From Malania oleifera (Eukaryota > Streptophyta > Magnoliopsida > Santalales > Ximeniaceae): a DNA stretch of 64,000 nucleotides. The notes below the pieces were generated by a model. That model searched no databases. It was given only the letters and a program-made list of their open reading frames with translations, and was not told the DNA's origin. This document shows, piece by piece, positions 2,030 to 58,701 of this stretch (positions are counted from its first letter, which is position 1; each line of letters opens with the position of its first letter). Where the stretch lies: assembly GCF_029873635.1 (NCBI RefSeq), contig NC_080426.1, forward strand, positions 52,156,093 through 52,220,092, written 5' to 3'. The translations under genes and the position numbers were made by a program.

Positions 2030-3224
2030 TTCCATGTGTTCTTAATCTCTTTCCCCCCTACATCTTCCAATTTGTATGTCCTTGGCTATATCTCGGTTGT
2101 GACTCTGTATGGGCCCTCCCAGTTTGGCTTTCACTTGTGTGACCCTAACTCCGATGGGTTGTTCCGCGTCTTCCTTAGGACTAAGTTTCCCGGCTGGAAA
2201 TTTCGTACTTTGATGTGATTGTTGTAGTACCTAGCTACTTTCTGTTGGTACGCTGCAACTTTTAGACTCGCCTAATCCTGTCTCTCTTCCAGTAGGTCTA
2301 TTTCTGATCTGAGCTCTTCGTTGTTGGTCTGCTCGCTAAAGTATTGCCTTCGCTAGGAGGGTATCCCTACCTCTGCTAGGATGACCACTTCTGCGCCAAA
2401 GGCAAGCATAAAAGGGGTTTCCCCTGTTGCTGCTCTCTTGGTGGTGTGGTATGCCCATATAACTGAAGGGAGTTCCTCTTCCCATCTACCTTGCATAGAT
2501 TCGAGTCGTGTCCTCAATCCGTGCAGTATCGTCCGGTTCATGTTCTCTACCTGTCCATTGCTCTGGGGGTGCGCCACTGATGCGGAGACGAGCTAATAGA
2601 TAGGTCTGAATAGAACTTTCTGAAGCGTTTGTTATCGAATTGCCTCCCGTGGTCTGTAACTATTGCCTAAGGGATTCCGAAACGGCAAACCACTGATGTC
2701 CACACAAAGCGCGTAATGTTCTGCTCTGTTATGGTGGCTAGAGTTTCGACCTCTACCCACTTAGTGAAATAATTTATTGCTACCAACAAAAACTTTTTTT
2801 GACCAGTCGCCTACGGTAAAGGTCCCAGGATGTCTATGCCCCACTGTGCGAAGGGGCAGGGACTGGTTAGAGGAAAGAGTAGACTAGAGGGTACGTGTGG
2901 TACTGTTGTGCATCTTTGGCATCTATCTCATCGTTTGACGAGCTCGATCGCGTCCTTTTTCATTGTGGGCCAGTAAAATCCCTGCCGCATGGCCTTATGG
3001 GCTAGGGCCCTACTGGCAAGGTGGTTTTCGTACACTCCTTTATGGATTTCCCTTAGTATGTATTTCCCTTCCTCATTGTTTAGACACCGAAGGTAGGGCA
3101 GTGTTAGGGATCGCCTGAAAAGCTCCCGACCCATCAATGTATATCTTGTTGCGTTTCTTCTCACTTTTAGAGTTTCCTTGTTGTCCTCTAGTACTGAAGG
3201 TATAGGAATAGAGACGCTCTCCAA
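2030..3224 (-). pseudogene. Integrase of Tat element A (frameshifted)
   Basis: The N-terminal zinc-finger part lies at 2928-3224 (H..H spacing in EIHKGVYENHLASRALAHK, then QGFYWPTM). The catalytic core is scattered over about 2580-2920 and includes a readable AQWGIDILGP block. The core end with AHPQSNGQVENMNRT is at 2353-2577. A C-terminal part with a GNLVLRK-like motif and NWEGPYRV is read at 2036-2218. These pieces are in different frames and carry internal stops, so no functional integrase is made. The family inserts the cDNA into chromosomal DNA. The pol end comes within about 130 bases of the convergent antisense gene. Confidence 0.85.
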
Positions 3225-4123
3225 TCGTCCTTGCTGATTGCGGACTCCATTGAGTTAATTATGTCCTCCTCGTATGAGGGTTTCCTTATCCGCTCTAGAT
3301 AAATAGCGTCTTTCCATTCCGAACCGGTTGTTGAGGCCAATTTCGCGAGTGCATCGGCCTTTTTGTTCTCTGCCCTTGGTACGTGTTCTATATCGAACTG
3401 AACGAATGCTTTTGCGTATTCTTGGGCTTTAACGAGATATTTCTTCATTCTTTGATCCCTAGCCTCAAATTCTCCTTTCAGATGCTTTACCACCAGCTGG
3501 GAATCACTCAATACCTTGATCTGTGCCACCCCTAATGCTTCTGCCAAGCATAGGCCTGCTAATAAAGCTTCATACTCCGTGTCATTGTTGGTTACTATGA
3601 ACTCTAGCTTTAGTGCGAAAAGAGTTTCATTGTCGTCCGAGGCTGAAAGGATGAATCCAGCTCCCCCTCCAGCAGCATTAGACGACCCATCAACATGTAG
3701 TGTCCATACGTCTGACTTAGTGGATGACTCAGGGAGCCTTTCTGCTGTAAAATCAGCGAGTACCTGAGCCTTGATAGCGGGCTTTGTTTGATACTGTATG
3801 TCGAACTCACTTAATTCGATTGACCACTTCGTCATCCTTCCCAAACTCTCTGGCCGCTGCAAAATTTGTCTCCTTGGTAGGTTTGTTAACACAATTACCT
3901 TGTGGGCCTGAAAGTAGGGCCTCAATTTTCGTGCTACACAGATGATGGAGAAGGCGGCTTTTTCCGCCGTGCAATAGTTCTTTTCGGCTCCACTCAGCAC
4001 TTTGCTAGTGTAATATATGGGCTGATGCTTCCTGGCTTCTTCCTGGACCAGGACCGAGCTGACGACATTTTTCGTAGATGCTATATATAGGTAAAGGTCT
4101 TCCCCATTCTTTGCCTTCGTCAA
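3188..4123 (-). pseudogene. Tandem RNase H domains of Tat element A
   Basis: This 311-residue open stretch continues the RT frame. Its first half is the usual gypsy RNase H, with LYLYIASTKNVVSSVLVQEE and the QPIYYTSKVLSGAEKNYCTAEKAA region. From about residue 142 a second RNase H fold begins at WTLHVDGSSNAAGGGAGFIL and goes on to TNNDTEYEALLAGL, KVLSDSQLVVKHL and NKKADALAKLAS, which supply the expected D/E/D/D positions. The second, archaeal-like RNase H is an established hallmark of Tat elements. The frame is lost near 3215, just before the integrase. Confidence 0.88.
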
Positions 4124-4171
4124 AAGGGGAGGGGATCCGAGGTATTGCTTGAGCTGTTCGAAGGCTTTGGC

Positions 4172-4969
4172 CTACTCCTCCCCCCATTCGAATCCTCCCT
4201 TCTTCCATAGTGCTCTGAAAAAAGGTAAGCCTTTGTCCCCTAAGTAGGAGACAAACCTGCTGAGTGAGGCTATCCTCCCGGTCAGAACTTGGATCTCCTT
4301 TTTTGTTCGCAGAGGTTCCATTTCCAGCAGGGCTCTTATCTTATTCGGATTTGCTTCTATACCTCTATGAGTCACCATAAAGCCCAAGAATTTTCCTGCA
4401 GAAACACCGAATACACACTTTGCTGGGTTCAGTTTCATGTGGTACCGGCGAAGGAGTTCGAATGTTTCCCTCAAGTCTTTACAATGTTGCCCTGCTTCTA
4501 AGATTTTTACCAACATATCGTCCACGTATGCCTCCATTGTTTTTCCGAGTTGATCTTTAAAGATCCTGTTCACAAATCTCTGATATGTGGCTCCTGCATT
4601 TTTTAGCCCAAAGGGCATTACCCGGTAACAATACAAGCCCCTTTCGGTGATAAAATAATTTTTTTCCTCGTCAGCTCGACTCATAGGGATTTGGTTGTAC
4701 CCCGAGTAGGCATCCATGAAACTGAGGAGCTCGTGCCCCGAGGTCGAGTCCACTAGCTGGTCGATTTGGGGAAGAGGGAAGTTGTCCTTTGGGCATGCCT
4801 TATTCAGGTCAGTGAAGTCTATGCAAGTGCGCCATTTTCCGTTTGGCTTCCTTACTAGGACCACTTTGCTCAGCCACTCCGGGTAGTCTACCTTCCTGAT
4901 GAAGTTGGCTTGCACCAGCTTTGTCACTTCCGCATCGATTATTTTGATCCACTCCATCGGGAAGCTCAT
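4172..4969 (-). pseudogene. Reverse transcriptase of Tat element A
   Basis: This is a 265-residue open stretch of Ty3/gypsy RT. Motifs in order are VVLVRKPNGKWRTCIDFTDL (template grip), FMDAYSGYNQIPM, VMPFGLKNAGATYQR and the catalytic YVDDMLVK box (about residue 147), followed by the thumb region and LTGRIASLSRFV. The wording of the catalytic block is characteristic of the Tat branch rather than of chromoviruses. It shares a frame with gag, protease and RNase H, with stop codons between the blocks. Confidence 0.92.
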
Positions 4970-5311
4970 TTTTTTTTTTTTCTATTTAACAGGTCGGTGG
5001 TTGGGGTCGACCTGCAGCCTGTGCTCTATGATTGCAGGGTCGATGCCAGGCATGTCTGCGGCCGACCAGGAAAACAAATCAGCGAATTCATTCAACAGTT
5101 CGCTCAGCTCCGCTTTCAAGGTGTCAGGCAGGTGACTTCAAATTTGTACACTTCTCTCCTGGTGGCCCTTCAGGGGTATATGCCTGATGTCTTCATCTAC
5201 TATACTGATTTGGGGATATTCTCCCCTTACCTTTAGATCTTCCACCATTAGAGTTTCTCTAGCCTCCATTTTCCCTTTCAAGGCCATTACATAGCAGCTC
5301 CGAGCAACGAC

Positions 5312-10106: not shown

Positions 10107-10641
10107 GTGTTCCGAGCTGATATTCCGAGCTTCTTTGTGGAGGAATTTTATAGAGTTGTTCCGAGCTGGGGATAATTTTCCAAGCTGGGGAGAATTTTCC
10201 GAGCTGATGTTCCGAACTAATGTTCTGAGCTAATATTCCGAGCTGTTTCATGGAGGACTTTTACCGAGCTATTACAAGGTGGGGATAATTTTTTGAGCTA
10301 ATGTTCTAAGCTAGGGAGAATTTTACGAGCTAATGTTCCGAGCTGGGGAGAATTTTTCGAGCTGATGTTCCGAGCTGGGGAGAATTTTCCGAGCTGATGT
10401 TCCAAGCTGGGGAGAATTTTCTGAGCTGATGTTTCGAGCCGGGGAGAATTTTTCGAGCTGATGTTTCGAGCCGGGGAGAATTTTTTGAGCTGATGTTTCG
10501 AGCTGATACTTCGAGCTGCTTCATGGAGGGCTTTTACCCAACTGTTCCGAGCTGGGGAGAATTTTCTGAGCTGATGTTTCAAACTAAGTGTGGAGGAGAT
10601 TTTTCGAGCTCATGTTCCGAGCTGAGTGGTGGAGAACGTTT
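10107..10641. repeat. ~32-bp tandem repeats in the 3' non-coding zone of element B
   Basis: The unit is approximately GAGCTGGGGAGAATTTTC plus CGAGCTGATGTTCC, repeated with single-base variants and occasional interruption by a GCTTCATGGAGG block. Tandem repeats between pol and the 3' LTR are an established trait of Tat/Ogre elements. The last ~65 bases form one arm of an inverted repeat around the telomere-like block. Confidence 0.85.
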
Positions 10642-10643
10642 CA

Positions 10644-10828
10644 CAAAACCCAAAACCCAAAACCTTAAACCCTAAACACTAAACCCTATACCTTAACACT
10701 AAACCCTAAACCCTAAACCCTAAACACTAAACCCTAAGCCCTAACACTAAACCCTAAACCCTAAACCCTAAACCCTAAACCCTAAGCCCTAAGCCCTAAA
10801 CCCTAAAACCTAAACACTAAACCCTAAG
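10644..10828. repeat. Telomere-like CCCTAAA array (interstitial)
   Basis: About 185 bp consist of CCCTAAA units with variants (CACTAAA, CCCTAAG, CCCTATA). This is the Arabidopsis-type plant telomere repeat in the C-rich orientation. It lies inside the tandem-repeat zone of element B, not at a chromosome end. Confidence 0.92.
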
Positions 10829-11330
10829 GCAAAATCCGCTCCATGAATCAGCTTGGCACACTTGAGTCCCGCTCCGAAAAATTGCTCCATGAAGCTGCTT
10901 GGTAAACTCAGTTTGGAACATAAGCTCGGAACATGAGCTTGAAAAATGTCCTCCACGACTCAGCTCAGAACATGAGCTCGAAAAGTGTCCTCCACCACTC
11001 AGTTCGGAACATCAGCTCAGAACATGAACTCGAAAAATATTCTCCACCGCTCAGCTCGGAACATGAGCTCGGAACTGATCTTACCGAGCAGCTTCATGGG
11101 GCAATTTCTCAGAGCAGGGCTTGCCGAATAAGTTTGCCGAGCTGTTCTTGTCGAGCTGCTTCTTGGAGTGAATTTTGCCGAACTAATTTTACCGAGCAGC
11201 TTCATGGAGCAATTTCTCGGAGCAGGGCTTGCAGAGCAAGTTTGCCAAGAAGTTCGTGCAGAGCTGCTTCATGGAGCGAATTTTGCCGAACTAATTTTAT
11301 CGAGAAGCTTCATGGCCTTTTATGCCTATT
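10829..11330. repeat. GAGCTCGGAACAT repeat block, partly inverted relative to 10575-10641
   Basis: Units of the type CTCCACCACTCAG(C/T)TCGGAACAT with AGCTCGAAAA occur three or more times between 10925 and 11065. They are the reverse complement of the block just left of the telomere-like array. After about 11085 the units (GAGCAGCTTCATGG) resemble the left array in direct orientation. Confidence 0.75.
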
Positions 11331-11913
11331 GAGTCATGCCCATCTGTCGGTCTGTTTTTAGCCTTCCGAGTCGTGCTCATCATTTGGGCCTTTGATGCTT
11401 AATAAGTTGTGCTCATATGCTGGGCTGTTTTTGGCCTTCCGAGTTGTGCTCGTCAGTTTGGCCTCTGTGCCTAATGAGTTGTGCTTAACTGTTGGCTGTT
11501 TTTGGCCTTCTGAGTTGTGCTCGTCAGTTTGGCCTCTTTGCCTAATAAGTCGTGCTCATCTGTTGGGCTGTTTTTTGCCTTATGAGTCGTGCTTGTCATC
11601 TGGGGCTTTGATGCTTAATGAGTCGTGCTCATTTATTGGGCTGTTTTTGGCCTTCCAAGTCATGCTCGTCATTTGGACTCTATGCCTAATGAGTCGTGCT
11701 CATCTGTTGGGCTATTGTTGGCCTTTCGAGTCGTGCTCGTCAATTTGGCCTCTGTGCCTAATGAGTCGTGTTCATCTATTGGGCTGTTTTTGGCCTTCTG
11801 AGTCGTGCTCGTCAGTTTGGCCTCTTTGCCTAATGAGTCGTGCTCATCTTCTGGGCTGTTTTTGGCCTTACGAGTCGTGCTCGTCATCTGGGCCTTTGAT
11901 GCTTAATGAGTCG
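11331..11913. repeat. 72-bp tandem repeats of element B (left part)
   Basis: The unit has two similar halves, GGGCTGTTTTTGGCCTTCCG / AGTCGTGCTCGTCA and GGCCTCTNTGCCTAATG / AGTCGTGCTCATCTGTT, with about eight repeats. Because 72 is a multiple of three, both strands stay open, which creates repetitive ORFs without coding evidence. The array resumes at 13774 after the SIRE-type insertion. Confidence 0.85.
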
Positions 11914-13773
11914 TGTTGATTAAGGTGTAATCCCAAGAGGGGGGGGGTGAATTGGATATTAAAAAAAATTCACTTAATTTTCTTTTACACACTTCTTATA
12001 AGTTTACCAACTACTTCTAGTTGCTCAAATATGTGTGAGTGTGGCAATCCTATCTATGCATGCAATATACTTAATTTAAATGTAATGTGGAAAATAAAGA
12101 GTAAAAGGAAGAGAAAAGACAAATGCGATTTTATGAGGTTCAGCCGACTTGGCCTACGTCCTCGCCTTGAGCAACCAATCAAGGATTCACTAATAACCCT
12201 GCTCCTTAAAGTGGGACGGAGCTTCCCTTACAAACCGCTACTTACAAGAGGTACAACTCCCTCCTTATCCGCTGCTCACAAGAGGTACAACTTCCTCCTC
12301 ACACCTAGTTCACAACCCGAACCGTGTTTACAATGAAATCTTAAAATAACACTCAAAACAATGCTTTTAACAAAAGCTTGTGAGTACAATTCAATTTCCT
12401 AGTATATTAACATATGATATAACTTGAAGCTCAAGAATGTATGAAAAACGATACAATTGTTTGATGTATGATATGTGTCAACACACAAATTCGTATTTAA
12501 TCAAAACTCCCTAGTGAAAATATATTTGGAATGCTTTGGAGTCTACTAGGGTTCTCAATTCACTTTGTAAAGATGCTCAAGTATATTTGAAGTGAGCTAT
12601 TTAACAAAAATTTGACTTAAATACAATTGAATCAAAAATCACAAAGTTTTCCTTCAAGTTCTAATATTTTAATCAAAGTAAGTTTTTCAATAAGAAATCC
12701 AATGAAAAATATATATGAATATGTGTTTATGTACTTATTGAATTTTAAATCAATCAACCAAGCTAACAAGTTTTTCTTAAAACATGATCTTCCCAAAAAT
12801 AAGTTTTTATATGTGAATACACACTCAAGATCAAAACCTCTTTCTAATGATAAACACATAAAGAGATGAGAGATTCTTTAAAAATGATAACTTGATAGAT
12901 CAAACCTTAATACTAGATCAAATTTTAGTTGGATGAATGAATGCCCTTTTGATTTCAGTAGAGATTTTCCCAAACGAAGATGGAAGAAGATTGAAGTGTA
13001 GAAAACCGGCTCTAGGGTTCAAATCTTGCAATAAGAAGTATATCTTTCTTGTTGTGTCCCTTAGCTTATGTTCTAGGGTTTAGATATTCATAATATATAC
13101 TATATTACCCTTAGAATTAATCTCATCCGTTGGATCAATAAGATATTTTGCGTGTCTTTTTAATAAAGAGCTGATTTTTAGGCTTTCCCACGAGTTCAGG
13201 CAACCGAGACTTCAGGCGCCTGAGGTTCCAAGGTCAGGTGACCGAAGAGCCTCGGCCAGGTTCTGTCTTCTCCATTTAATTCTTCAGGAGACTAAACTTA
13301 ATCTTTAGGCAACCGAAGAAATTCTTCAGGCTACTAAGGTTTGAGTTCAGGCGATCGAACTACCCATTCTCTCAAATTTTTATTTCTAACTAAAAATCAG
13401 CTTGACTTCTTTTCTTGGATCTTTCATAAAATATATTTTTCATGATTGTGAAAACATTTCAAGGTCCATGAGAGTTTCCTAATGATGTACATGAAATGCA
13501 TGAATCCTAACAATCATTCTAAGTTATAATGAGCCTCAAATTAAATCATATGAAAATGTTAATACATGAGTTCTAAATACCCTTTCCCAAGATATTCTTG
13601 AACTTTGCCTCTTGCATCTTGATTCCCATACTCTTTGAGTTCCATGGATCTTGCCAAGATTTGTTAACTTTCCGTGCATGCTTAGTGTAAGTCTTGTTCA
13701 CAAACTCAATGCACAGATCAAATATCAAGTGATTTGTCATTATCAAAACAAGATTGGACTCGTAGAGTCAACA
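11914..13773 (-). mobile_element. SIRE/Maximus-type copia solo LTR (1860 bp)
   Basis: The ends are TGTTGATTAAGGTGTAATCC and GACTCGTAGAGTCAACA, giving an inverted TGTTGA/TCAACA, with a near-perfect 5-bp duplication AGTCG (11909-11913) / AGTCT (13774-13778). Read on the minus strand it starts TGTTGACTCTACGAGTCCAA and ends with the run of C before the CTCTTGGGATTACACC-type end, as I recall for Sirevirus LTRs. It resembles 45307-47343 in inverted orientation. It holds no pol sequence, so it is a solo LTR. It interrupts the 72-bp array of element B. Confidence 0.75.
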
Positions 13774-13980
13774 AGTCTCATCTGCTGGGCCGTTTTTGGC
13801 CTTCCGAGTTGTGCTCATCATTTGGCCTCTATGCCTAATGAGTCGTGCTCATCTGTTGGGCTATTTTTGGCCTTACGAGTCATGCTCGTCATTTGGCCTC
13901 TATGCCTAATGAGTCATGCTCATTTTTGGGCGGTTATTGGCTTCACGAGGCGTGCTCGTTGGCGGATTTGTCAGCTTGTG
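13774..13980. repeat. 72-bp tandem repeats of element B (right part)
   Basis: This is the continuation of the array at 11331-11913 after the inserted solo LTR, with about three more units decaying into a GAGGCGTGCTCGTTGGCGG segment. Confidence 0.8.
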
Positions 13981-16526: not shown

Positions 16527-16593
16527 ACTCAGCTGGGCTAGTTCAAGTAGTAAGGACAACTTGTGACTTTAGTGACCCTAAGGTCACGAGTTC
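16527..16593 (+). mobile_element. tRNA-derived SINE, 5' part (copy 1, interrupted by element C)
   Basis: The left target-site duplication is CATGAACTAAG (16516-16526). The body begins with a tRNA-like head containing box A TAGTTCAAGTA (16539-16549) and the start of box B, ending CACGAGTTC exactly where element C is inserted. The rest of the SINE resumes after 25836. Confidence 0.8.
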
Positions 16594-18359
16594 TGTCACG
16601 CCCTAAACCCGAAAATGGGACCCCAGGAGTGAGTTTAGTAACCTAACCTGTCTCTGTATCAATTTAAAACATACATGATACAACATAAAAAGAGGGTCCG
16701 ACCCCGTAAGGTGAACGGATGCACCATATACATACATACAATCGTCCATACTCATCAAAAAACGCAGCGGAATACTGTCTTTCTATACCTAAATTGTACC
16801 ATACCAGAGTCTATACCATATAAGGATATACATCCCTACGAATACCATACATACTACAGGCGTCTACAAAATCCATCACGACAACCCGGTCACAAAAACT
16901 CGTACCTATCAGGCACTAGTAGTAGCTAAACAACACCCCTCACTTCCGAATGCTAGGATGCTAGTTTCAGCTACCCGAAGGACCTGAAAAACATTGTATA
17001 TATTCAAGGTGAGACACCTCTTAGTAAGGAAGAAAATAGGTTATATCAGTGTGTGGCATACCAGTGTCATTTTACATACTCCATAACACTATACATACGA
17101 TACGGTTGAAACAATTCATACAGTTTCAAAACAGTTCCATACATTTTCATACAGTTCCAGTATTTTCACAAAAACCATTCCAGTTCATACGATACCCAAA
17201 TACATACATACATACATACATACATACATACATACATACGGTCAGTGTCGTCACACTAGTTCACAACTATACCAGGTCACCTCGTCTCATAGCAATTACA
17301 TTGCTACATACACAACTATGCTGCGACGATCATGGCCCAATGGTGAATCCATTGCTTCATACGCAACTACACAAGGTCACCTAGTCTCACAGCGATTACA
17401 TTTCTACACATGCAACTACGAAGATCTACGACTCAGGCCCAATAGTGAATCCATTGCTACATATGCAACTACACAAGGTCACCTAGTCTCACCCCGATTA
17501 CATTGCCACGTGCCAAACTATGCTGCGACGACCTAGGCCCACTGTGAATCCATTGCTACATACGGTTTAGAACACACCTTCGGTGACCAGCCAAAACATA
17601 CTGGTGATATTTCACACCCCCAATATAGATCCGACCACTCTCGCCACGGTAACTACCCGATACCTGGTTGTTTTACAAATCCCTGGAATCATTTTGGAAC
17701 TCACGTTCCTATACATTTCAACGTACGGTAATTAGCCGCCACATAGCTGTTTTACAAATACCTGGAACAATATACATACAAACAAACATACCATACTTAT
17801 TTGGTTTACGGCAAATCATATCGTTTACAAATTCAAGTATACAGTTTATGCAAATATGGATTACAGTCACCTCAATAATACAATTTAAATAAGACAAACG
17901 GTTTTCCAACAAAATAGAGATGATACCCAAAATCCCTAATTTTCCTGAAAAACTATTACCCTAAAATCCCGCATTTTCACCTGATAAATTTCCCCAAATA
18001 AGTAGTCAAAACATAGATACGATCGTAGCCTACAAGCTTACCGATCCCGATTTCAAAAATGGACTAATATAAACAGAATCCCCTTACTTAACCCGAATTC
18101 CAACTACGAACTCTATGGTCCTCAAAACCACAAACCGAAACTCCAAAACCTACAAACCATAGTACAGTACATGCTTACAATTCGTACCACTACACATATA
18201 CCGAATCAAAAATGAAAACCGTGCCTTACCTCGATTTTAGCTCGAAACCCAAAAACGCTCGAATCGAGATTCCGATCCGCTAGAAACGTAAAGAATCCTT
18301 CACTAATCCTAAAAGTAACTTTGGATTTACGATTCAGGCGACAAACGGCGAAGAAATCA

Positions 18360-18411
<52 letters not shown>

Positions 18412-18725
18412 CCATAACTTAGAAACTAAGCAACCCCAAAAGTCCTTTTATAAGCCTTTGACCCAAGGGATTTGTCGACGAAATGGTGCCTTCGTCGACG
18501 AAAAGTCAGGGATTTCGTCAAGGAATCGGAGAATTCGTTGACGAATCCTAATATTTCCAATTTCCACCTCTCGACTTTTCTTCATTGATGAACCTCTGAA
18601 TTTCGTCGATGGAAAGTCTTCTACCTTTGTCGAAAAATTTTGGCCTCGTCGACGAAGTCTGCAGAATTTCCATTTTTCCCCTCTTTTACATATTAAACCC
18701 ATATATCACGGTTCGGGTTGTTACA
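16594..18725 (-). repeat. 3' LTR of element C
   Basis: This 2132-bp LTR contains a CATA microsatellite (17207-17239), about 70-bp subrepeats with CATACGCAACTACACAAGGTC (17290-17560), a GA microsatellite (18361-18409) and a cluster of TTCGTCGACGAA palindromes (18470-18660). It pairs with 23712-25831. Confidence 0.93.
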
Positions 18726-23709: not shown

Positions 23710-23711
23710 GC

Positions 23712-25831
23712 TGTCACGCCCCGAACCTGAAAATGGGACCCAGGGGTGAGTTTAGTAACTTAACCTGTCTCTGTATCAATTTAAAACATACATGATACAA
23801 CATAAAAATAGGGTCCGACCCCGTAGGGTGAACGGATGCCCCACATATATACATACAATCGTCCATGCTCATCAAAATACGCAGCGGAATACTGTCTTTC
23901 TATACATAAATTGTACCACACCAGAGTCTATACCATACAAGGATATACATCCCTACGAATACCATACATACTACAGGCATCTACAAAATCCATCACGACA
24001 ACCCGGTCACAAAATCCTCGCTTCCGAATGCTAGGATGCTAGTTTTGGCTACCCGAAGGACCTGAAAATCATTTGTATATATTCGGGGTGGGACACCTCT
24101 CAGTAAGGGAGAAAATATGTTATATCAGTGTGTGGCATACTAGTGTAATTTTACATACTTCATAGCACTATACATACGATACAGTTGAAACAATTCGTAC
24201 AGTTTCAAAACAGTTCCATACATTTCCATACAGTTCCAGTATTTTCAGCAAAACCATTCTAGTTCATACGATACCCAAATACATACATACATACATACAT
24301 ACATACATACATACATACATACATACATACATACGGTCAGTTTCGTCACACTAGTTCACAACTACACCAGGTCACCTCGTCTCACAGCGATTACATTGCT
24401 ACATACGCAACTACGCTACGACGATCATAGCCCAATGGTGAATCCATTGCTTCATACGCAACTACACAAGGTCACCTAGTCTCACAGCGATTACATTTCT
24501 ACACATGCAACTACGAAGATCTACGACTCAGGCCTAATAGTGAATCCATTGCTACATATGCAACTACACAAGGTCACCTAGTCTCACCCCGATTACATTG
24601 CCACGTGCCAAACTATGCTGCGACGACCTAGGCCCACTGTGAATCCATTGCTACATACGGTTTAGAACACACCTTCGGTGACCAGCCAAAACGTACTGGT
24701 GATATTTCACACCCCCAATATAGATCCGACCACTCTCGCCACGGTAACTACCCGATACCTGGTTGTTTTACAAATCCCTGGAATCATTTTGGAACTCACG
24801 TTCCTATACATTTCAGCGTACGGTAATTAGCCGCCACATAGCTGTTTTACAAATACCTGGAACAATATACATACATACAAACATACCACACTTATTTGGT
24901 TTACGGCAAATCATATCGTTTACAAATTCAAGTATACAGTTTATGCAAATATGGATTACGGTCACCTCAATAATACAATTTAAATAAGACAAATGGTTTT
25001 CCAAACAAAATAGAGATGATACCCGAAGTCCCTAATTTTCCTCAAAAATTGTTACCCTAAAATCCCGCATTTTTACCTAATAGATTTCCCCAAATAAGTA
25101 GTTAAAACATAGATACGATCGTAGCCTACAAGCTTACAGATCCCGATTTCAAAAATGGACTGATATAAATAGAATCCCCTTATCTTAACCCGAATTCCAA
25201 TTATGAACTCTATGGTCCTCAAAACGAAAAACCGAGACTCTAAAGCCTACAAACCACAGTACAGTACATGCTTACAATCCGTACCACTACACATATATCG
25301 AATCAGAAATGAAAACCGAGTCTTACCTCGATTTTAGCCCGAAACCCAAAAACGCTCAAATCGAGATTCCGATCCGCTAGAAACGTAGAGAATTCTTCAC
25401 TGATCCTCGCAGTAACTTTGGATTTGCGATTCAGGCGACAAATGGCAAAGAAATCGAGGAGAGAGAGAGAGAGCTTCAAATCCTAGAGAGAGAGAGAGAG
25501 AGAGAGAGAAAAAAACCCCATACCTTAGCACTAAGCAACCCCAAAAGTCCTTTTATAAGCCTTTGACCCGAGGGATTTTGTCGACGAAATGGTGCCTTCG
25601 TCGACGAAAAGTCAGGGATTTCGTCGAGGAATCGGAGAATTCGTCGACGAATCCTAATACTTCAAATTTCCGCCTCTCGGCTTTTCTTCGTTGACGAACC
25701 TCTGAATTTCGTCGACGAAAAGTCTTCTATCTTCGTCGACGAATTTTGGCCTCATCGACGAAGTCTGCAAAATTTCCATTTTTCTCCTCTTTTACATATT
25801 AAACCCATATATCATGATTCGGATTCTTACA
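23712..25831 (-). repeat. 5' LTR of element C
   Basis: This 2120-bp LTR is highly similar to 16594-18725. Differences are mostly microsatellite length (CATA at 24278-24334; GA at 25459-25509, split by a short insertion) and a ~45-bp deletion near 24015. It carries the same GTCGAC palindrome cluster (25575-25760), better preserved than in the partner. Confidence 0.93.
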
Positions 25832-40823: not shown

Positions 40824-41032
40824 AATTTCTAAAAAAAAATAAGCTATTGCCCTGTTTATAAGCCATTGTCCTAGAAAAAATCATTGACGGTTTGATTTTT
40901 AACTAAATCAATTTTTACTGTTTTACCTTTACTTGGTTGCGGTAATTCAAAACCGTCAACTATTTTTTGAGCTCATCCAAAATCGTCGACGATTTAACCT
41001 GTGCCATACCAAATTCTCCTTTTTCTTACTTA

Positions 41033-44389: not shown

Positions 44390-44744
44390 TGGTTCGTATT
44401 CTAGAGAGAGAAAAAAAATGAAATAACATAACAAGGAAGAAAAGGATATTCTATTTATAACTAGTTTGACCCGATCAGCCTCATCAACGAGTCAGAGTTC
44501 TCGTTGACAAGCCAAAGAAGGTCGCTCGTGGCCAAGAAGGTGACCTCGTCGACGAGCTTGAGATTTCAGAATCTCTAAAAATCCCTTAGTATCTCCTCAT
44601 CGACGAGCCCCGGCGTCTTGTTACCAAGCCATCGATAAGACTTTGTCGACGAGAAATGGAGCCTCGTCGACGAGCTCTATTGTTTTATCCTTTTTTATTT
44701 CCCTTCTCTTTTCTTTATTTATTTTTTGAATTCGGGTCCCTACA
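42503..44744 (-). mobile_element. Tekay solo LTR (2242 bp) nested in the LTR of element D
   Basis: The ends are TGTAACGCCCCGACCC and TTCGGGTCCCTACA, with target-site duplication TCTGT (42498-42502) / TCTAT (44745-44749). A GA microsatellite lies at 44335-44385 and CTCGTCGACGAG palindromes at 44480-44670. No internal element sequence is present, so it formed by LTR-LTR recombination. Confidence 0.85.
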
Positions 44745-45306: not shown

Positions 45307-47343
45307 TGTTTGCTTTTTGAGTCCAATCTTTGTTTTGATGCTAACGAAACACCAATATCTTATGTGTGCATTTAGTATGTGAACAGACTTAAATTTCAGC
45401 ACACATAAAGAAAGGGAAAATGGAAGCCAGAATAGAACTTCAAAGCTCACATCATCCGACATATTCCAAGAAGGCAGTAGAGCAAAGATGAAGAAGAAGA
45501 CTTATGTTTTTAATTTGTAATGCATTTTGTTTTATATTTGGTCTGTAATAATGCATGACATGCATAATGTAAATGATAAGTTCAACATGATCGTAGATTG
45601 ACCATAGGGAACCAAATGACCGTAGGGCATCCTTCGGTTGACCGACGCCAGATTTTTAGGGTTAATTCAAATACCATAGATTAACTTTAAGTCCCCAAAC
45701 ATTACGTGACAAGGCGCCTATAACTTAGAAATTACAATTATATGAACAGGGGTGACTTTAAATGTCAATCAGGACTTAAATGCACATTTTTAGTGTGTTC
45801 AGTCGACCGAACCCAAACCTACATAGACTATTGGTCAACCGAACCTCCCAAGGTCAACAGGTTGACTATTTAGTCAACCATTTTTAAAATGAACTTACTT
45901 TCTAGTCGACCGAATTGGCACATGGCTAATTCCCAACGCTTTGGTCGACCGAACTTCTAGTTAAAAAATGATCTAGTAGACTGAACCTTAAAATTTGGTT
46001 AACCAAATATGCCCTAGTTGACCAAACCTTAGAGGGTTCAAAATCGCTTTAATACGGTCGACCAAAACCTTAGTTCAAAAATGCCCCAGTCGACCGAACT
46101 CAGTAATATGGTCAACCGAACCTTTAATATGGTCAAACGAACCTCTCGAATTGGTCAATTTTTTACCATAGGTAAACGAGGTTAATTATAATTAAACATT
46201 ATTAATCTTTTTCTAAAATGACCTCCGTATCCCCAATGGTCATATTTTTCCCCAAGTCTATATATACCCATTCATTTGTCTTAATTAGTAGTAGATTATC
46301 AAAATCATTAATAAAAATTCTCTCAATTTTTTATGCTCATTTTTTATCCTCTCTTTATTATTACTTTGTAAAATCTATTTTCAAGAGAGCATTATATTTA
46401 TCTTGGGCATTTGTTTTGACAAATCATATTGTTTACTCTCATATCTTATTTATTCTTTCAAATCTTATTTTTTGGGAGTAAATCAAAGTTTTCTTCATAT
46501 ATATTTATTGATATATATCTTTGGAGAAAACTTGTTTATTGCTTGTGAATCTTGCACACATATTGCAAGACTTCAAAGGCTCATATATTTTTCATTGCAA
46601 AATTATTTTTTAGCAAGAATCCTAGTTTCCCTAAGTTTTATTTGAAAATCTAGTTTTTGGGAAAACTCTTGACATATTGAAAAGAGTACCTTGAGCATAT
46701 TCTTATTTTAATATCTTTACTTGGAAGGTCTCTTACTCTTATTAGTAAGAAAATCATTTTTCAGATTCAGTCTTTATTGAAAAATATTTTTTAGTGAAAA
46801 ATACACATTCTCACATTGAACTTTAATTCATATCATACATGAATGTATTTCTAAGCTTATTGTTGTATACATCTACTTTTATTAGAAGTACATTTGTTTG
46901 TATGCAAAAATTTATTTGATTATCTGTTATATTCCCAACTGGTGGTCGAAAAAGGGAGACTAGCCCTATGAATAGTCCCGGGCTGGTTCATACCCGGTTA
47001 AAAGAACTAGGTGCACCATCCTAGTAAGGTGTTGTATTACGTATCGCTCCACCCGTTAAGTGAGCCTTAGTGGAATCATCTTACTTGTTAGCTTGAGGCA
47101 AAGACGTAAGCAGTATTGGCCGAACCCCGATAACATTTATTGTGTCTACTCTTAAATTTCCTACACATGTATGCTTAGATTTAATTAATTATGAATATGT
47201 GCATGATTTAAATATTGTGAATGATTGGAAAATATTTATACAGATCCTAGGTTGTGGTATACTATTGTTGGATTAGTTAAACCTAGACATAAATTTTTAA
47301 ATATCTAATTCACCCCCCTCTTAGGAATACACCAATTCCAACA
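45307..47343 (+). mobile_element. SIRE-type copia solo LTR (~2.04 kb) nested in the LTR of element D
   Basis: It starts TGTTTGCTTTTTGAGTCC and ends CACCAATTCCAACA after a CACCCCCCTCTTAGG block. It resembles 11914-13773 in inverse orientation. Many GGTCGACCGAAC-type motifs lie between 45640 and 46150. The flanks ATAGT (45302-45306) and ATAAC (47344-47348) could be a 5-bp duplication altered by two transitions. Confidence 0.7.
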
Positions 47344-47920
47344 ATAACTGACATAATATAATCCCCTTACCTGTTTTCCTGAAAAATGCCCCAAAAGGCC
47401 AAAACCCTAGCTTTTGGGAGTGGCACCCAAAATGCCCGAATCAATAATCCACTCCGCTATACATATAGAAAACTGCTCCTAGACCTTGGTGGTAACTTGC
47501 AATCGTTGAGTGTGGCGACGATCGGCGGGAAAATCGAGGAGAGAGAGTCTGGTTCGTGGTTCTAAAGAGAGAGAGAGAGAGAGAGAGACATTTATTTTTC
47601 TAAAATATCAAACCTTACTTCACCTTTAAGTCTTTGACCCAGCCACATTCATCGACGAAATGGAGTCTTCATCGACGAACCGTAGAAAGGCGTTCGTCGA
47701 CAACCACCTTGCTTCGTTGACAAACCTGAAGCTTGAATTTATTCCAAACTCTTGGGATTTCTTCATTGACAATCCCTAGAAGGGCGCTCGTCGACAAAAA
47801 CTGGAATTCGTCGACGAGGCCATGCTGCCCATTTTTCCTAAATTTTCCATCCCTCTCTTTTATTAATCTATTCCTTTATCTTTTGGTTCGAGTTACTACA
47901 CGTATTTTCTCCTCTAACTC

Positions 47921-53000: not shown

Positions 53001-56000
53001 AAATTTACAGGATTCCCAGACTTAGACAAATTCTACACCTTGTAAACCTTATTAAATAACTTCAACTTGATAAAAATTTTCTTATATACAAAATTAAAAA
53101 AATGAAATTAATCTAAATCAAGTATACAGCTGCTATTTAAAACCTGAAAACATATAACCAAATTAAAAATCAATAACATAAATCTAATCATTGTGCATAG
53201 ACTTAATTGACTCTGTCTGCTAGAGCATGGAGTTCAGTTCACCTATACCATTTATATTGGTATTAATGGTAATTTGTCCATACAATAAACATTTATTACA
53301 TGAGCATGTTGTACATATTTTTAAAAACTGTGCTCATCTTCATCCTGTGCCCTTTCTGCCTCAGTGCACCTTCACTTTAATGAAAATTGCAATTTGGGAG
53401 ATCCATGATAACACCATACAAGCCCAAGTAGGAAACTCTACTCAAGTTGTGGATGGCCAAAGCTTTCCAGCCTAGGAGACTGTTTCCAAAGACATCCAAT
53501 TTGCATCTAATTTCTATTTAAGGGGTAAGAAAAGGTTTTAAAATGAGTCACCATATAAATACATAAGAAGCTTCAAAAATTTTCCCAATCAAAGTCACTT
53601 CCCCACAATTCTTTAGACAGCAATTTATCTAAAAGACACAAATTCAAAGGAGAAGAACTATTAGTGTTCTAGTTATATCATATAACTTGAATCAATTTCT
53701 GGAGAATACTTTGTCAACCACTTGACTAAAAATTGCTTTTGTGATGTGTGGCTCATATAGTGAGTGGAAGGCATGCACAAAGAGAAAACATGGTGAAAAC
53801 ATAATGCTGGTGTTAGCCGAGGAAACCGTCGATAGTTGTCCTGTATCCATCGACGGTTTGGTCCAGTTTCAAAGAGGTTTTGCTCTCAGTATTAAACCGT
53901 CTACGGTATGTCTGCAAACCGTCGACAGTTTGGCTCAGAAATCCAACGCAGATTTTCAAATTTTGAATTGGGACGTTAAGTTGGTTGAGTTTTAAAGGGA
54001 GAGCCTCCAAGAACTTTATATATACATTATATATGTTGTATCTGTGATGATGTTCGTGTCTTTGACACAAGATAGTAAAAGTCATATTGTCGATTGCTTC
54101 CGTGAATGTAGGCATTACCGAACCACGTAATTCTTTGTGCCTTATTATTACTTTCATTATAATATGCGTGATTGGTGTTTTGTATATTTCACCGTTGAGT
54201 GCTGCATTTGTAAGATCGTTTTATTCCATTGTGCATTCGTTTTTCACAAGAAATTGGTATCAGAGCATTGTTGTAATGGCCTTTGGAACTTCTTCTGCAA
54301 AGTTCGATGTCGTTAAATTCGATGGAATGGGAAACTTCAGTTTATGGCAAAGAAGGATGAAGGATCTGTTAGTGCAGCAAACTATGGTGAAGGCTTTATA
54401 CGGAGTTCAACCCATAGTAGTTAAAAGCCTAGGCACGAGGCGCAGAGAGGCGAGGAGGCTAGCGCCTCATACCAGGCGAGGCAAGGCGACCTGCATGAGG
54501 CGCAGAGGGGCAACAGGCGCAGTGAGGCGCGCCTTAAAAAATTTGAGTTTGTTAAATGAAAGAAATAGCAAGAGCCAGAGTTGTACCCCTTACTCGACTC
54601 GAACAAATAGGAGCCCTAGCCCTCTTTGACCCTTCGAAGCCCCACGACCCTTCACAACTTTGTCTTGCACATTCGAACCAACAAGAGCCTTTGTGAGCCT
54701 TTGAACTAGCAACATGAGTTCGTCTACGAGCCTTCGAACCAACCAGAAGACTTCGCGAGCTCGTCTTTGAGCCTTCGAACCATACCATGAGTTTGTCTTT
54801 GACATTTCGAACCAGCAGGAGCCTTCGGGAGTTCATCTGCAAACCTTCGAACTAGCCGTGAGTTCGTCACGTCGTTTTCGACAATTTCCAACTAGCAGCA
54901 AACTCATCTTCTTCTTCTTTCTATTGCCTACGTACTGCTGCCTGTTTGCATTTTGCTTATGTCACGTGAGGGTGATGGTGGATTTCGGACATGTAACCCC
55001 CCAAATCAACGGATCACAATGGATTTCAAGCTTCTACCATTTTCTTAAGATTGGATTTCAGATACAGCTTGCTCTGAAGAATGACCCAAAAAAAAGGGGA
55101 TTTTCAAAAGGTAAATGTTTAAATAATTCTCATATGATCAAAATTTTTGTACCACTCATTAAAATAATATATATTCACTCTCGCCATAGTATTTTCAAGA
55201 AAGTTTTGATATATCAAATGTGACAATTTAAACTTAATTTTGATATTAAATTTTATGAGTACTATTTTAAATCATTAGAATAACTTTAATACATATTCAA
55301 GTTGTGATTATTGTATAGTCAAATCTTCAATTATAATTATTGCTGCTAAAATTTATCTAAGAGAATTTGGATCAATTATAATATTGATTGCATGCGAAAA
55401 TTAAAAGAGAAATGACTTAAGGGACGCAAGTTGTACTTTGGAGAATTGCTTCAATGCTTAAATTAGGGAAATCTTTTAAACCAATGTCTCGCCCATGCAA
55501 ACTACATTTTATTGTACTCTTTTCTTTTATACTTTGAAATCTTTTATTGTACTCTTTTCTTTTGATGTTGAACTATGTTGAATTGTCTAATATTACTAGA
55601 TATTCATATGTTCATATATCAATTACCCCAAATAGGTATTTTACACTATTTTAATAATTGTGCGCCTCACCTTCGTGAGGCGCGCGCCTTTGCCTCGTGC
55701 CTCGACTTCAAATACCCTTTGCGCCTCGGCTCACCCGCGCCTCTGATTACTATGGTTCAACCTGAAGGCATGGATAATACAAATTGGAAGGAATTGGAAA
55801 CGAAGGATGTGGCGACTATCAGATTATGTTTGGCCGATGACGTGTTGTATCACGTCATGGAAGAGGGTTCTCCTATGCCATTCGGTAGAAACTTGAAAGT
55901 CAGTATATGTCTAAATCTCTTACGAATAAATTATTTCTTAAGCAAAAATTATATTGGCTTAAGATAGTGGAAGGTTCGGATTTGAACCGACACATCAATG

Positions 56001-58701
56001 CATTCAATCAAATTATAAGTGATTTAATGCGGGTTGATGTGAAATTCGAGGAAGATGACAAAGCGCTGATGCTATTGAATTCCCTACCGGCGTCTCACAC
56101 GTATGAAAACCTGGTTACGAATCTAATATGGGGTAAAGAAACCCTGAATTTGGAAGAGGTAACAAGCGCATTGCTGAGCTTTCATCAAAGAAAGAAAGTC
56201 AGCGATGAAATTTCACATGGTGAAGAGCTTGTGGTGACGGGTAACCATGAAAAAATTCAGGAATGGATCGAATCATAATAAGTCTCGATCGCAATCCAAG
56301 AAGAAGAAGGATATTCAATGTTTTAAGTGCGGGAAAAAGGAGCACATAAAATTAGAGTGTCCAGAATGAAAGAAGGGGAATGTTGAAAAACAAGAATGTA
56401 CTTCAAAATCAGCAAATGTAGTAGAGGAAGGAAACTCAGAAAGTAGTGATGGTGATATGCTTTCAGTTTCATCGAGGTCGGATCGCCTCACGGATTCTTG
56501 GATCCTAAATTCCAAATGTTCTTATCACATGACATCAAATAGAAATTGGTTCAACACCTATAGGTCAGCTAATTCTAGTTATGTTCTAATGGGAAATAAT
56601 GTTGCATGCAAAATAATTGGAGTAGGAAATATTAGATTTAAGATATATGATGGTGTTGTGAGAAATTTATGTGATGTAAAGCATGTACCGGATCTACGGA
56701 AGAATGTAATTTCATTGGACACTTTAAATTGTAACGGGTATAGTTAAAAGTTTGAAAGTGGATTAACGAAGGTGTGTGAAGGCAAATTGATGGTGATGAA
56801 AGGACAAAAGTTACCAGGAAATATATATGCACTGCAAGGTATCACAATTGTAGATGGAGCTGCAGCTATTGAATCTGAGTCAGATGTTCTGTGGCATATG
56901 CGACTAGGGCATATGGATGACTACATTTATTCAAATGTTTGGGGACCGGTGAGGATAGCATCACGGGATGGACATATGTGTTTTGTGGGTTTATCACGAA
57001 AGGTCTTGGCATATCTCATGCGACATAAGTCAAAATTGTTTGTCAGGTTTAACTTGTGGTTGAGATGGAAAATCAGAACGGGAGAGAGATCCTCAGGTCA
57101 AAGGGACTGAGTGAGCTGATTTTGTTCAAGGAGTTTCGTGAGCAGCATGGCGAGTTGTATGCAGGGCTTGCAAGGAACTTCTTGGTGAAGTCAGTATGGC
57201 GCGTCTCTCGTTTAATCAATTGCCAAAGGTATGACTTGATGGGAGAGTTGTGGACAAGTTTTGTGGTAGACTACTCTAATTTGAGTGGATGTTCACAGGT
57301 GCACGTTTCTAGTGGGTGTGATCTAAGCTTGATGTAATGTCCGGATGGTACATATATAAGAAAGGTGAGTTCAAACTCAGTAATCCAATAACAAACAAAG
57401 TGGTGATCAGTGGAAACATGATTTTTGGTGAGAAAGCCATGATGCAACGTACTCAGCTAAAGGAAGAGAAACAAGATGCCAAAAAACTGTAGCAGCAATG
57501 AACATGTGATGCAGGTGGAGTTACAGACCCAACCTAATGTCCCAAGGTCAAGGTGGAGCAACAGGGTTTATATTTTAGTTTCTCCTAAGGGGCGTAAATA
57601 TGCCAAGGTGGATATTGTTATCATATGTGGCTCATATGGTGAGTGAAAGGCATGCACAAAGAGAAAACATAGTGAAAATAGAATGCTAGTGTATGCTGAG
57701 GAAACCATCAACGGTTGGCCTGTATCTGTCGACGGTTTGGTCCATTTTCAAAGAAGTTTTGCTCTCGATATTAAACCGTCGACGGTTCAACTCGAAAACC
57801 CAGCACAGATTTTCAAATTTTGAATTGGGACGTTAAGTTGGTTGGATTTTTTAGGGAGAGCCTCCAGGAACTTTATATATACGTTGTATATGTTGTATCT
57901 ATGATGATGTTCGTGTCTTTGACACAAGATAGTGAAAGTCATATTGTCGATTGCTCCCATGGATGTAGGCATTGCTGAACCACGTAATTCTTTGTGTCTT
58001 TGTTATTGCTTTCATTATAATCTGCGTGATTGGTGTTCTATATATTTCACCATTGAGTGCTGCGTTTGTAAGATCGTTTTATTCCACTATGCATTCGTTT
58101 TTCACAACAATTGCTAACAAAATTGACATAAAGGTCTTGATTTGAAATAAAGGCATGACTAGGAGTTTAGATTTTCAGTAATTGCTTCATTTTTAGTTCA
58201 CAAAAGATTCTAAGCATGTTTAAAATGCGTATGCCACAGCAGCAAAATTAGTTTTGAGTCAATTGACTTACAACTCCAATTACAGAAGGAAGCCAGCCTT
58301 TGTACAATGCCCGTGGACCTTCTTCCCGCAATACAGTTGATAAAGCATGAAACATTCCTCTGTATTGATAAGGAGATTTCTCGGTCTGCAATAGTAAAAC
58401 CAAGGATATACGGAAGTTGCCATATCACAAAACACCCAATCCCCAATATTCAAAAACTAAAACCTGGTTATCTTAGAGCTTAAAATGGTTAGAAAGGAAA
58501 AAAGGAAGAAAAAAAAATGTATTTCCCTCCTGGAGAGAACCCAACCAATGGTCAAAGAAACATTTCTCAAAGATGGTCACAACTGTACCTGTACAGTTAG
58601 CCTGCCTCGTACCATGTCCATTGGATAAGTAGCAGACATAGCAATGATTCCAGCACATGCTCCAGCTCCAAGGCGTAGAAGAGGAGTAAGTTGAGCATCT
58701 T
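50008..58701 (-). CDS. ADNT1: Mitochondrial adenine nucleotide carrier, ADNT1-like (3' four exons; 5' end outside the window)
   Basis: Four exons join in frame (58589-58701, 58272-58385, 51046-51390, 50008-50091) to give about 218 residues ending in ...VEIRISD and TGA. They cover repeats 2 and 3 of the mitochondrial carrier family. The signature motifs are YPMDMVRGRL and YPLDVIRRRM, and each repeat has an E-G-x-x-A-L-Y-(K/R)-G block. Plant ADNT1 exchanges cytosolic AMP/ADP for matrix ATP across the inner mitochondrial membrane and is about 350 residues long, so the first third (repeat 1) must lie beyond 64000. All splice sites are GT-AG and no stop or frameshift is seen. The gene looks intact despite introns full of transposons. 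The closest alternative is a related CoA/ADP carrier, but the shared wording with ADNT1 is much stronger. Confidence 0.93.
50818..50983 (-). mobile_element. Au-type tRNA-derived SINE in the last intron of the carrier gene
   Basis: On the minus strand it starts near GGGGAGCCTAGGCATAGTTG and runs through the tRNA-like head. It then passes AAGGCTGCATACTTTGGACC and ends CACCAGGCTGCCC plus a short T-run. This is the wording I recall for the Au SINE family of angiosperms. It is flanked by 17-bp direct repeats, CAAGCATGACTGAAGCT (50801-50817) and CAAGCACAACTGAAGCT (50984-51000), differing at two positions. Confidence 0.88.
51046..51390 (-). CDS. ADNT1: ADNT1-like exon (repeat 3)
   Basis: This exon is 345 bp, 115 codons, in phase 0 at both ends. 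It begins IPYVGLNFAVYESLKDWL and ends YRGLVPNSVK before donor GTCAGT. It carries the third carrier signature AYPLDVIRRRMQMVGW. An upstream in-frame ATG exists in the intron but is not a start, because the acceptor TTTTGCAG lies between it and the conserved sequence. Confidence 0.95.
51391..51982. other. ADNT1: Intron sequence of the carrier gene
   Basis: This is the 3' part of the 6.9-kb intron. No element is recognised in this stretch. Confidence 0.6.
51991..52851. mobile_element. hAT-type MITE with perfect 8-bp target-site duplication
   Basis: Terminal inverted repeats are TAGGGGTGTTCA and TGAACACCCCTA (12 bp). The target-site duplication CAATTTGG is at 51983-51990 and 52852-52859, identical on both sides. 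The 861-bp interior is AT-rich, with AC microsatellites at 52321-52338 and 52663-52681, and has no transposase. Both subterminal regions carry GGGTTGGGTTG- or GGTTCGGTTTGG-type repeats. Confidence 0.9.
52860..53730. other. ADNT1: Intron sequence of the carrier gene
   Basis: No element or gene is recognised. Confidence 0.5.
53740..54248 (+). repeat. 5' LTR of copia element E
   Basis: It starts TGTGATGTGTGGCTCATAT and ends ATTCGTTTTTCACA. It contains AACCGTCGA-type palindromic motifs at 53824-53935. It is about 90% similar by eye to the 3' LTR. Confidence 0.85.
54255..54266 (+). promoter_or_regulatory. Primer binding site of copia element E
   Basis: TGGTATCAGAGC, complementary to initiator tRNA-Met, lies a few bases after the 5' LTR. 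Confidence 0.9.
54277..56370 (+). pseudogene. Gag of copia element E, interrupted by a hAT insertion
   Basis: The ATG at 54277 starts MAFGTSSAKFDVVKFDGMGN with FSLWQRRMKDLLVQQ, the usual copia gag N terminus. The frame is interrupted at 54412 and resumes at 55763 (WKELETKDVATIRLCLADDV). The UBN2-like part is at 55907-56278 (DLNRHINAFNQIISDLMRVD, LLNSLPASHTYENLV). The zinc knuckle CFKCGKKEHIKLEC (56319-56360) follows after a frame change. Confidence 0.85.
54413..55754 (+). mobile_element. hAT-type non-autonomous element 1, nested in gag of element E
   Basis: The ends CATAGTAGTTAAAAG and CTGATTACTATG are imperfect terminal inverted repeats, followed inwards on both sides by GAGGCGC-rich sequence. 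It is flanked by a perfect 8-bp duplication GTTCAACC (54405-54412, 55755-55762). The 1342-bp interior has degenerate CGAACCA/GAGCCTTCG repeats and no transposase. The related element at 60091-61384 is in the opposite orientation. Confidence 0.9.
56457..57340 (+). pseudogene. Protease and integrase remnants of copia element E
   Basis: The protease block reads DSWILNSKCSYHMTSNRNWF. The family has D-S-G at the N-S-K position, so the catalytic Asp and Gly are lost. The pre-integrase segment WHMRLGHMDD and integrase fragments (YSNVWGPVRIASRDG, FVGLSRKVLAYLMRHKSKL, VDYSNLSGCSQVHV) follow in several frames, with the catalytic core largely deleted. Confidence 0.8.
57616..58106 (+). repeat. 3' LTR of copia element E
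   Basis: It starts TGTTATCATATGTGGCTC after the purine tract and ends ATTCGTTTTTCACA. AACCGTCGACGGTT-type motifs lie at 57705-57790. Confidence 0.88.
58272..58385 (-). CDS. ADNT1: ADNT1-like exon (end of repeat 2)
   Basis: This exon is 114 bp, 38 codons: TEKSPYQYRGMFHALSTVLR then EEGPRALYKGWLPSVIGV, in phase 0 at both ends. The acceptor is TTGCAG and the donor GTAAGT. It joins directly to IPYVGLNF of the next exon, 6.9 kb away. It is too short to stand out in an ORF listing. Confidence 0.95.
58589..58701 (-). CDS. ADNT1: ADNT1-like exon (repeat 2 signature)
   Basis: This exon is 113 bp, entering after one base of a Glu codon: (E)DAQLTPLLRLGAGACAGIIA then MSATYPMDMVRGRLTVQ, which carries the second carrier signature P-M-D-M-V-R-G-R. 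The acceptor is CTTGCAG and the donor GTACAG. The preceding exon is not found up to 64000. Confidence 0.95.

Follow-up and report, generated by a model that had tools for sequence, protein, structure and literature searches.

GTCGAC-centred palindrome arrays in LTRs of Malania oleifera retrotransposons: a promoter module possibly exchanged between Ty3 chromoviruses and Ty1/copia elements

Why would LTRs of unrelated retrotransposons in a single plant genome carry clusters of palindromes built around the same GTCGAC core? The question is raised by a 64,000-nucleotide stretch of Malania oleifera (NC_080426.1:52,156,093-52,220,092, forward strand), called here the window, in which an earlier note had described such clusters in three lineages and proposed either that these had converged on one host DNA-binding factor or that selection had acted on methylation or recombination. 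We distinguish three types of site. Type 1 (YTCGTCGACGAR) is found in Ty3 chromoviruses and in one Ty1/copia family, type 2 (AACCGTCGACGGTT) in the element copia E and in chromovirus-like LTRs, and type 3 (TTCGGTCGACCGAA) in a Sirevirus-like LTR.

The GTCGAC core in the window and in the genome

In the window, GTCGAC occurs 27 times, whereas 30 dinucleotide-shuffled versions average 4.9, and GCGCGC is the sole other palindromic hexamer, among the 64 tested, with a comparable ratio (5 versus 0.9). Within each of eight LTR stretches, the hexamer ranks first in four, second in one and third in three. The excess over shuffled sequence is thus confirmed, and confinement of the clusters to one lineage did not emerge. 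Clusters are also present at every place named in the earlier note once decayed copies are counted (Table 1), but exact copies of the motif strings are rarer than it had written, many sites being mixed or decayed. Indeed, exact TTCGTCGACGAA was found five times (once at 18491 and four times within 25597-25732) and exact CTCGTCGACGAG twice (44545 and 44663), with none of either in 47640-47825. There is a single exact AACCGTCGACGGTT at 57774 and a single exact ATCGTCGACGAT at 40982, while 45640-46150 holds one GGTCGACCGAA and four GTCGACCGAA. All other sites of the window either are of mixed form (TTC...GAG) or have decayed, with up to six mismatches under loose limits.

Table 1. LTRs and palindrome arrays located in the window (steps in bp)
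Feature	Position	Strand	Remarks
3' LTR of chromovirus A	16593..18725	-	91% repeat of 23711-25831
5' LTR of chromovirus A	23711..25831	-	repeat of 16593-18725
type-1 array, 7 sites	18471..18656	-	TATA match 20 bp past 18474
type-1 array, 8 sites	25577..25762	-	steps 19-24-21-47-20-23-20; TATA match 16 bp past 25575
type-2 array, 3 sites, chromovirus-like LTR	40879..40994	-	steps 30-72; TATA match 16 bp past 40878; lineage from the earlier note and LTR-end likeness only
type-1 array, mostly CTCGTCGACGAG form, 7 sites	44480..44674	-	steps 21-46-51-20-25-20; TATA match 19 bp past 44480
type-3 array (TTCGGTCGACCGAA form), Sirevirus-like LTR	45633..46141	+	13 sites, up to 6 mismatches
type-1 array, 7 mostly decayed sites	47648..47818	-	steps 20-25-49-20-25-20; no TATA match with the pattern used
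5' LTR of copia E	53744..54262	+	85% repeat of 57623-58119
type-2 array, 4 decayed sites, 5' LTR of copia E	53824..53930	+	steps 21-50-22
type-2 array, 3 sites (1 exact), 3' LTR of copia E	57703..57787	+	steps 21-50

The arrays are not universal among the LTRs of the window, since the two intervals without GTCGAC (between the words at 5441 and 18474, and between those at 25735 and 40985) hold three LTR-like repeat pairs (6212-7750/14636-16185, 26230-28084/31339-33164 and 34055-35602/35599-37154). Self-comparison also detected tandem repeats at 10108-11920 and 13777-13959, with a step of about 72 bp from 11313 on. On the minus strand, 3191-4981 carries a reverse transcriptase of Ty3 type in which RT_RNaseH is followed by another RNase H (RVT_3), an order that we take to be reminiscent of the Tat/Ogre lineage; near this element GTCGAC is seen only as lone words (5006 and 5441). 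Amid retrotransposon remains, an open stretch at 50986-51414 (minus strand) matches a mitochondrial carrier protein (Mito_carr, 1.7e-24) and is either a piece of a host gene or a captured piece.

We then considered the whole genome (1.494 Gb in 510 contigs, 13 of them seen as long). All versions of YTCGTCGACGAR together amount to 121,972 sites in the 1.49-Gb genome, and every version is hundreds-fold over its reversed control: TTCGTCGACGAA was counted 37,861 times versus 67 for the reversed pattern, CTCGTCGACGAG 29,470 times versus 36, and the mixed form TTCGTCGACGAG 27,154 times forward plus 27,487 times reverse versus 65 plus 76. The corresponding counts are 2,630 versus 4 for AACCGTCGACGGTT and 3,249 versus 1 for TTCGGTCGACCGAA. 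As copies within one family are not independent, these genome counts, like the spacing counts given below, overstate the number of independent cases. Arrays with the core are found genome-wide, far above control, in Ty3 chromoviruses, copia elements and a Sirevirus-like LTR, in line with the three lineages of the earlier note, with the reservation that the Sirevirus-type motif was already published (Vitis CGGTCGACCG).

A consistent picture came from a sample chosen independently of the motif, namely 18 stretches, each 10 kb long, at the fixed positions of 10 and 30 Mb on the long contigs. GTCGAC has the top ratio of the 64 hexamer palindromes (36 versus 7.9), and CTCGTCGACGAG (7 copies) and TTCGTCGACGAA (3 copies) are the commonest among 66 occurrences of 12-bp palindromes with more than two letters. 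Most of the GTCGAC words (31/36) lie inside the listed arrays or at most 30 bp from them, with five outside. The outer base Y, tallied by hand in these stretches, stands at 3 : 10 : 7. A symmetric co-variation of this base was considered and rejected, the two sides being nearly independent (54,641 mixed sites genome-wide versus 60.7 thousand expected).

Carriers and anatomy of the arrays

Between the LTRs of chromovirus A, the minus strand matches the Pfam domains SH3_Tf2-1 (1.9e-25), RT_RNaseH_2 (9.6e-23) and RVP_2, together with a weak Chromo match (0.0027, below the Pfam cut-off). SH3_Tf2-1 and a weak Chromo were also found at 4062-4457 of locus L009. These two elements thus carry domains of Ty3 chromoviruses, most other type-1 loci being assigned by LTR likeness only, and both are outside Sireviruses. 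The label Tekay belongs to the earlier note; the class assigned here is Ty3 chromovirus.

On the Ty1 side, copia E carries Retrotran_gag_2 (1.8e-21) and Pol_BBD (4.3e-26) between its LTRs, with no reverse transcriptase match to Pfam in the pieces tested. A type-1 array (steps 21-71-21-25-21) is also present in a copia LTR whose end forms the first 300 bases of L009 on the minus strand, the element behind it matching RVT_2 (5.7e-30) and SH3_retrovirus (1.5e-28). This LTR belongs to a family: a first look gave 1,778 candidates, of which the 40 that were scored (L009 among them) all match, at 84-100%, almost the full 301 bases. The three copies fetched retain the array, with steps 21-70-21-25-21 in one and 21-71-21-25-21 in two. 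L009, L023 (7455-7534), L021 and copia E have in common their LTR starts or the part that follows the array (70-83%), the copia LTRs of L021 and L023 being assigned by likeness only, with no Pfam match in the single piece tested of each. Since the arrays of L009 and L023 are of type 1 and those of L021 and copia E of type 2, both types span the Ty1/Ty3 divide, type 2 being placed in chromoviruses by LTR likeness. In the copia-like LTR of L021 (8450-8700), the inner flanks vary (ACTGTCGACAGT, ACAGTCGACTGT and ATTGTCGACGAT) around a constant GTCGAC.

A polyC signal is a mark of the Sirevirus lineage. The type-3 LTR of the window has a polyC stretch near 47310, and the signal was found in one of four loci fetched with the type-3 motif; we call this LTR Sirevirus-like from LTR features alone, namely the polyC signal and the likeness to the Vitis Sirevirus motif.

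In the fuller type-1 arrays 7-10 sites were called, and successive sites are about 21-25-20-46-20-24-21 bp apart. The same distances were recovered from exact type-1 sites on contig C1. Between 1 and 2.5 Mb, at least 243 sites are listed, a set that is incomplete because mixed-form minus-strand places are absent after 1.47 Mb; 137 of 242 neighbours lie at 250 bp or less, versus 6.0 expected. Among the sites listed, neighbours are found at 19 (4), 20 (12), 21 (14), 24 (11), 25 (4) and 44-46 bp (29), with none at 22 or 23 bp. Up to 1.47 Mb, where both strands and the three forms are covered, 146 sites give 77 of 145 neighbours at 250 bp or less (3.8 expected), of which 17 are at 19-21, 8 at 24-25 and none at 22-23 bp. 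A strict helical rule of 10.5 bp was tried and rejected: 20-21, 30-32, 40-42 and 50-52 bp fit it, while 24-25 and 45-46 bp do not.

Such regularity could suggest functionless minisatellite-like repeats with a 22-bp unit that merely drift, and the mean step is indeed near 22.5 bp (period 22.5, R 0.81). This explanation is nonetheless very improbable, as the spacers differ among units whereas the sites agree, the steps alternate between about 20 and about 24 bp and avoid 22-23 bp, and the array keeps its position before the TATA box.

This position was analysed in 22 type-1 arrays, nine from motif-fetched loci (L001-L008 and L028), nine from the 18 stretches and four from the window. In 15/22 of them a TATA match follows the array at 6-20 bp, versus 0/22 in the equal band on the opposite side and a background of 4.7%, a result that was helped by the fact that array orientation was set partly by the TATA word. 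The match lies at 38 bp in one further array and at 86 bp in another, a copia array; four of the 22 lack a match by the pattern used and one more ends at the edge of its locus. The word GTGACGTG is found within the last short spacer in 7/22 arrays and GGTCAAA before the TATA box in 7/22; we take these words to resemble bZIP and W-box sites.

The other types follow other steps. In chromovirus-like LTRs, whose lineage was set by LTR ends only, type-2 steps are 31-73-31 (L017), 31-74-30 (L029) and 29-41-30-71 (L030); they are 30-46-31 in L032, to which no lineage is assigned, and 20-31-23-52-21 in L021. For type 3, steps of 32-33 and 39-43 bp are common but not general. At L001 (1254-1679), type-3-like sites come directly after a type-1 array, as would result from the insertion of one element at the promoter of another.

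A common module or convergence

The earlier note suggested that each lineage had gained its GTCGAC palindromes independently, with one host factor favouring them. Against this, the copia and chromovirus arrays of type 1 have in common their spacing, a 13-bp spacer and a centre element. When the spacers of five copia type-1 arrays, four of them belonging to a single family, were set against those of 18 chromovirus-type arrays, they proved similar, with z values of 4.99, 4.81, 5.69, 4.03 and 3.45, each reached by 0/200 shuffles. The reverse-complement controls are not empty (z 1.89, 4.12, 2.21, 2.14 and 2.38), the 4.12 coming from L023, whose "spacer" contains a decayed site. For comparison, four chromovirus arrays set against the others gave spacer z values of 8.6, 8.9, 4.4 and 10.7, with controls at 0.3, 0.7, -0.9 and 0.1.

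Two elements of the arrays, both picked after inspection, were compared more closely, and for each the best single likeness is only weak. In register with 13 chromovirus spacers of its own length, the copia-family spacer of 13 bp gave a summed p of 0.0001 and a best-single p of 0.012, with reverse-complement controls at 0.98 and 0.95, respectively; this comparison left out 20 spacers of 11-12 bp. For the centre element that follows the site, compared with 15 chromovirus arrays and leaving out those whose gap starts elsewhere, p was 0.002 summed and 0.018 best-single, without a reverse control. Direct alignment gave less: the best unmasked copia-chromovirus match reaches 75.6% over 90 bases, and masked-motif blastn between copia and chromovirus arrays returned only matches of 16 bp (E 0.53) and 32 bp (E 0.49), nothing useful. 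Identity of motif versus spacer columns between arrays (0.83 versus 0.66, motif higher in 145/147 pairs, 24/171 pairs having been dropped for too few columns) was not used as proof, because the comparison is circular, motif columns having been defined by their likeness to the consensus.

As the copia type-1 spacers are like those of chromoviruses, descent or exchange of a promoter module is favoured over convergence for this type, and we propose with moderate confidence, from sequence comparison, that type 1 is a module common to copia and chromovirus elements that would have a single origin, by exchange or by descent.

The situation differs for type 2. No likeness to the other arrays was seen for the copia spacers of this type (z -0.03, -1.49 and 1.82; reverse controls 0.49, 3.32 and 0.85). 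The test has some noise, the reverse control of the 3' LTR of copia E (3.32) being above its sense value. Spacing differs as well, 21-50-22 in copia E versus about 30 and 41-46 or 72-74 in chromovirus-like LTRs. Type-2 arrays thus share the site and neither the spacing nor the spacers, and the best reading is that type 2 arose separately in copia and chromovirus-like LTRs, by convergence. Type 3 also has its own steps. Altogether, the idea of convergence on one host factor gives way for type 1 to a common module, suggested by common spacing and similar spacers, and is retained for type 2; as an account of all the arrays, independent gain in each lineage is rather unlikely.

A wider reading is tentative, though quite conceivable: a promoter module of about 190 bp, in which some eight palindromic sites, their set gaps and a TATA box make up a fixed grammar, may have moved between the Ty3 chromoviruses and the Ty1/copia elements of one plant, with arrays switching between types 1 and 2 within each superfamily. 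Unrelated retrotransposons would thus share a host regulator through exchanged cassettes.

Candidate function and relation to known LTR motifs

The clusters probably form the upstream activating region of LTR promoters, their sites being read by a putative dimeric host protein. Each GTCGAC-centred palindrome of 12-18 bp would most likely be bound by a host protein, or a family of such proteins, that contacts DNA as a symmetric dimer. With several sites at fixed distances directly before the LTR TATA box, the bound proteins would be able to act jointly on the start of transcription, and they would activate rather than silence the LTR promoter; the place, spacing and symmetry of the arrays fit such a dimeric host activator. 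Among plant regulators, IDD zinc-finger proteins have the site TTTGTCG. GTCGAC is made of two overlapping GTCG cores, preceded in the consensus by TTC, CTC, ACC or CGG where the IDD site has TTT.

No sparing of the sites from mutation is seen once an element has inserted: between the LTRs of chromovirus A, differences fall at 10/95 motif columns, defined by the sites of the 5' copy, versus 14/170 others (Fisher p 0.66). Families retain the sites nonetheless, which argues for selection during the activity of the elements.

The arrays could instead matter as hairpins in the part of the LTR that lies at the 3' end of the element RNA. The three arrays that were folded do outperform all their dinucleotide shuffles (z -5.38, -3.85 and -5.25). 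However, any set of self-complementary words would be expected to do likewise, and neither the 20/24-bp steps nor the place before the TATA box would be necessary for folding, so that a role in RNA or single-strand structure seems improbable.

Repeated activator boxes are familiar from copia elements: in the U3 of the Tnt1 family they form blocks that differ between relatives. These blocks recall the arrays described here, with other sequences, and we know of no exchange of Tnt1-type U3 blocks with Ty3 elements.

The closest system is that of the Sirevirus repeated motifs (RM boxes), which, according to the accessible text of Bousios et al. (2010, PMC2829016), are palindromic and present in many LTR copies upstream of the TATA box. 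The Vitis motif given there, CGGTCGACCG, corresponds to the inner ten bases of type 3. The type-3 motif and palindromic arrays before the TATA box are thus already known for Sireviruses from that text. Types 1 and 2 and the type-3 array of the window likewise consist of palindromes in several LTR copies before the TATA box, in numbers often below the eight of that paper. The same text describes the motifs as specific to Sireviruses and lacking in classic elements, and all but one of them as having a CGG-CCG core. This core is seen in type 3 (CGGTCGACCG) but in neither type 1 (TCGTCGACGA) nor type 2 (CCGTCGACGG), and types 1 and 2 sit in chromovirus-type and copia LTRs. Unlike the arrays described here, fixed spacing does not appear in the accessible text of PMC2829016.

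In maize, the Sirevirus palindrome CACCGGACNNNGTCCGGTG is tied to secondary structure and small RNAs (PMC10760457, accessible text). It is a palindromic LTR motif as here, but of different sequence, and was reported for Copia elements and found also in Helitrons. As for chromoviruses, the accessible text of Cruz et al. (2014, PMC4029996) describes in Del LTRs a 5' CpG island of variable sequence and length. This CpG-rich block in the 5' part of the LTR is comparable to the arrays here, but the study reports that its eudicot Del elements lack it, and the term palindrome did not turn up there. Our literature search, most subscription papers being outside its coverage, found no account of GTCGAC arrays in chromoviruses and no paper joining GTCGAC, palindromes, retrotransposon and LTR; for GTCGACGA with retrotransposon, none of the matches listed was relevant by title.

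The link of Sirevirus palindromes with small RNAs, for which they are described as hotspots in the accessible literature, raises the possibility that the host recognizes LTRs by these arrays and that the sites recruit silencing. In Arabidopsis, REM-GDE1 repeat motifs recruit Pol IV with set spacing, the main motif being a repeat with a one-base spacer that is bound well only at two or more copies (PMC12270911, accessible text). By inspection, the sequences of these motifs (TTTTGCTTAT and AAGCGGAT) differ from our sites, and we rejected the identity of the two. Moreover, the retention of the sites in multiplied families would be odd if they were purely harmful to the element. A silencing role is therefore unlikely, and activation by a host protein remains our preferred reading.

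Palindromic LTR arrays, described as a trait of Sireviruses, are found here in chromoviruses and in a copia family, and the roughly 122 thousand intact type-1 sites of this single genome come with a spacing rule that is directly testable. If one host factor reads the arrays, it would act as a common switch for many retrotransposons of the M. oleifera genome, and if the module was exchanged, promoters would pass between retrotransposon superfamilies.
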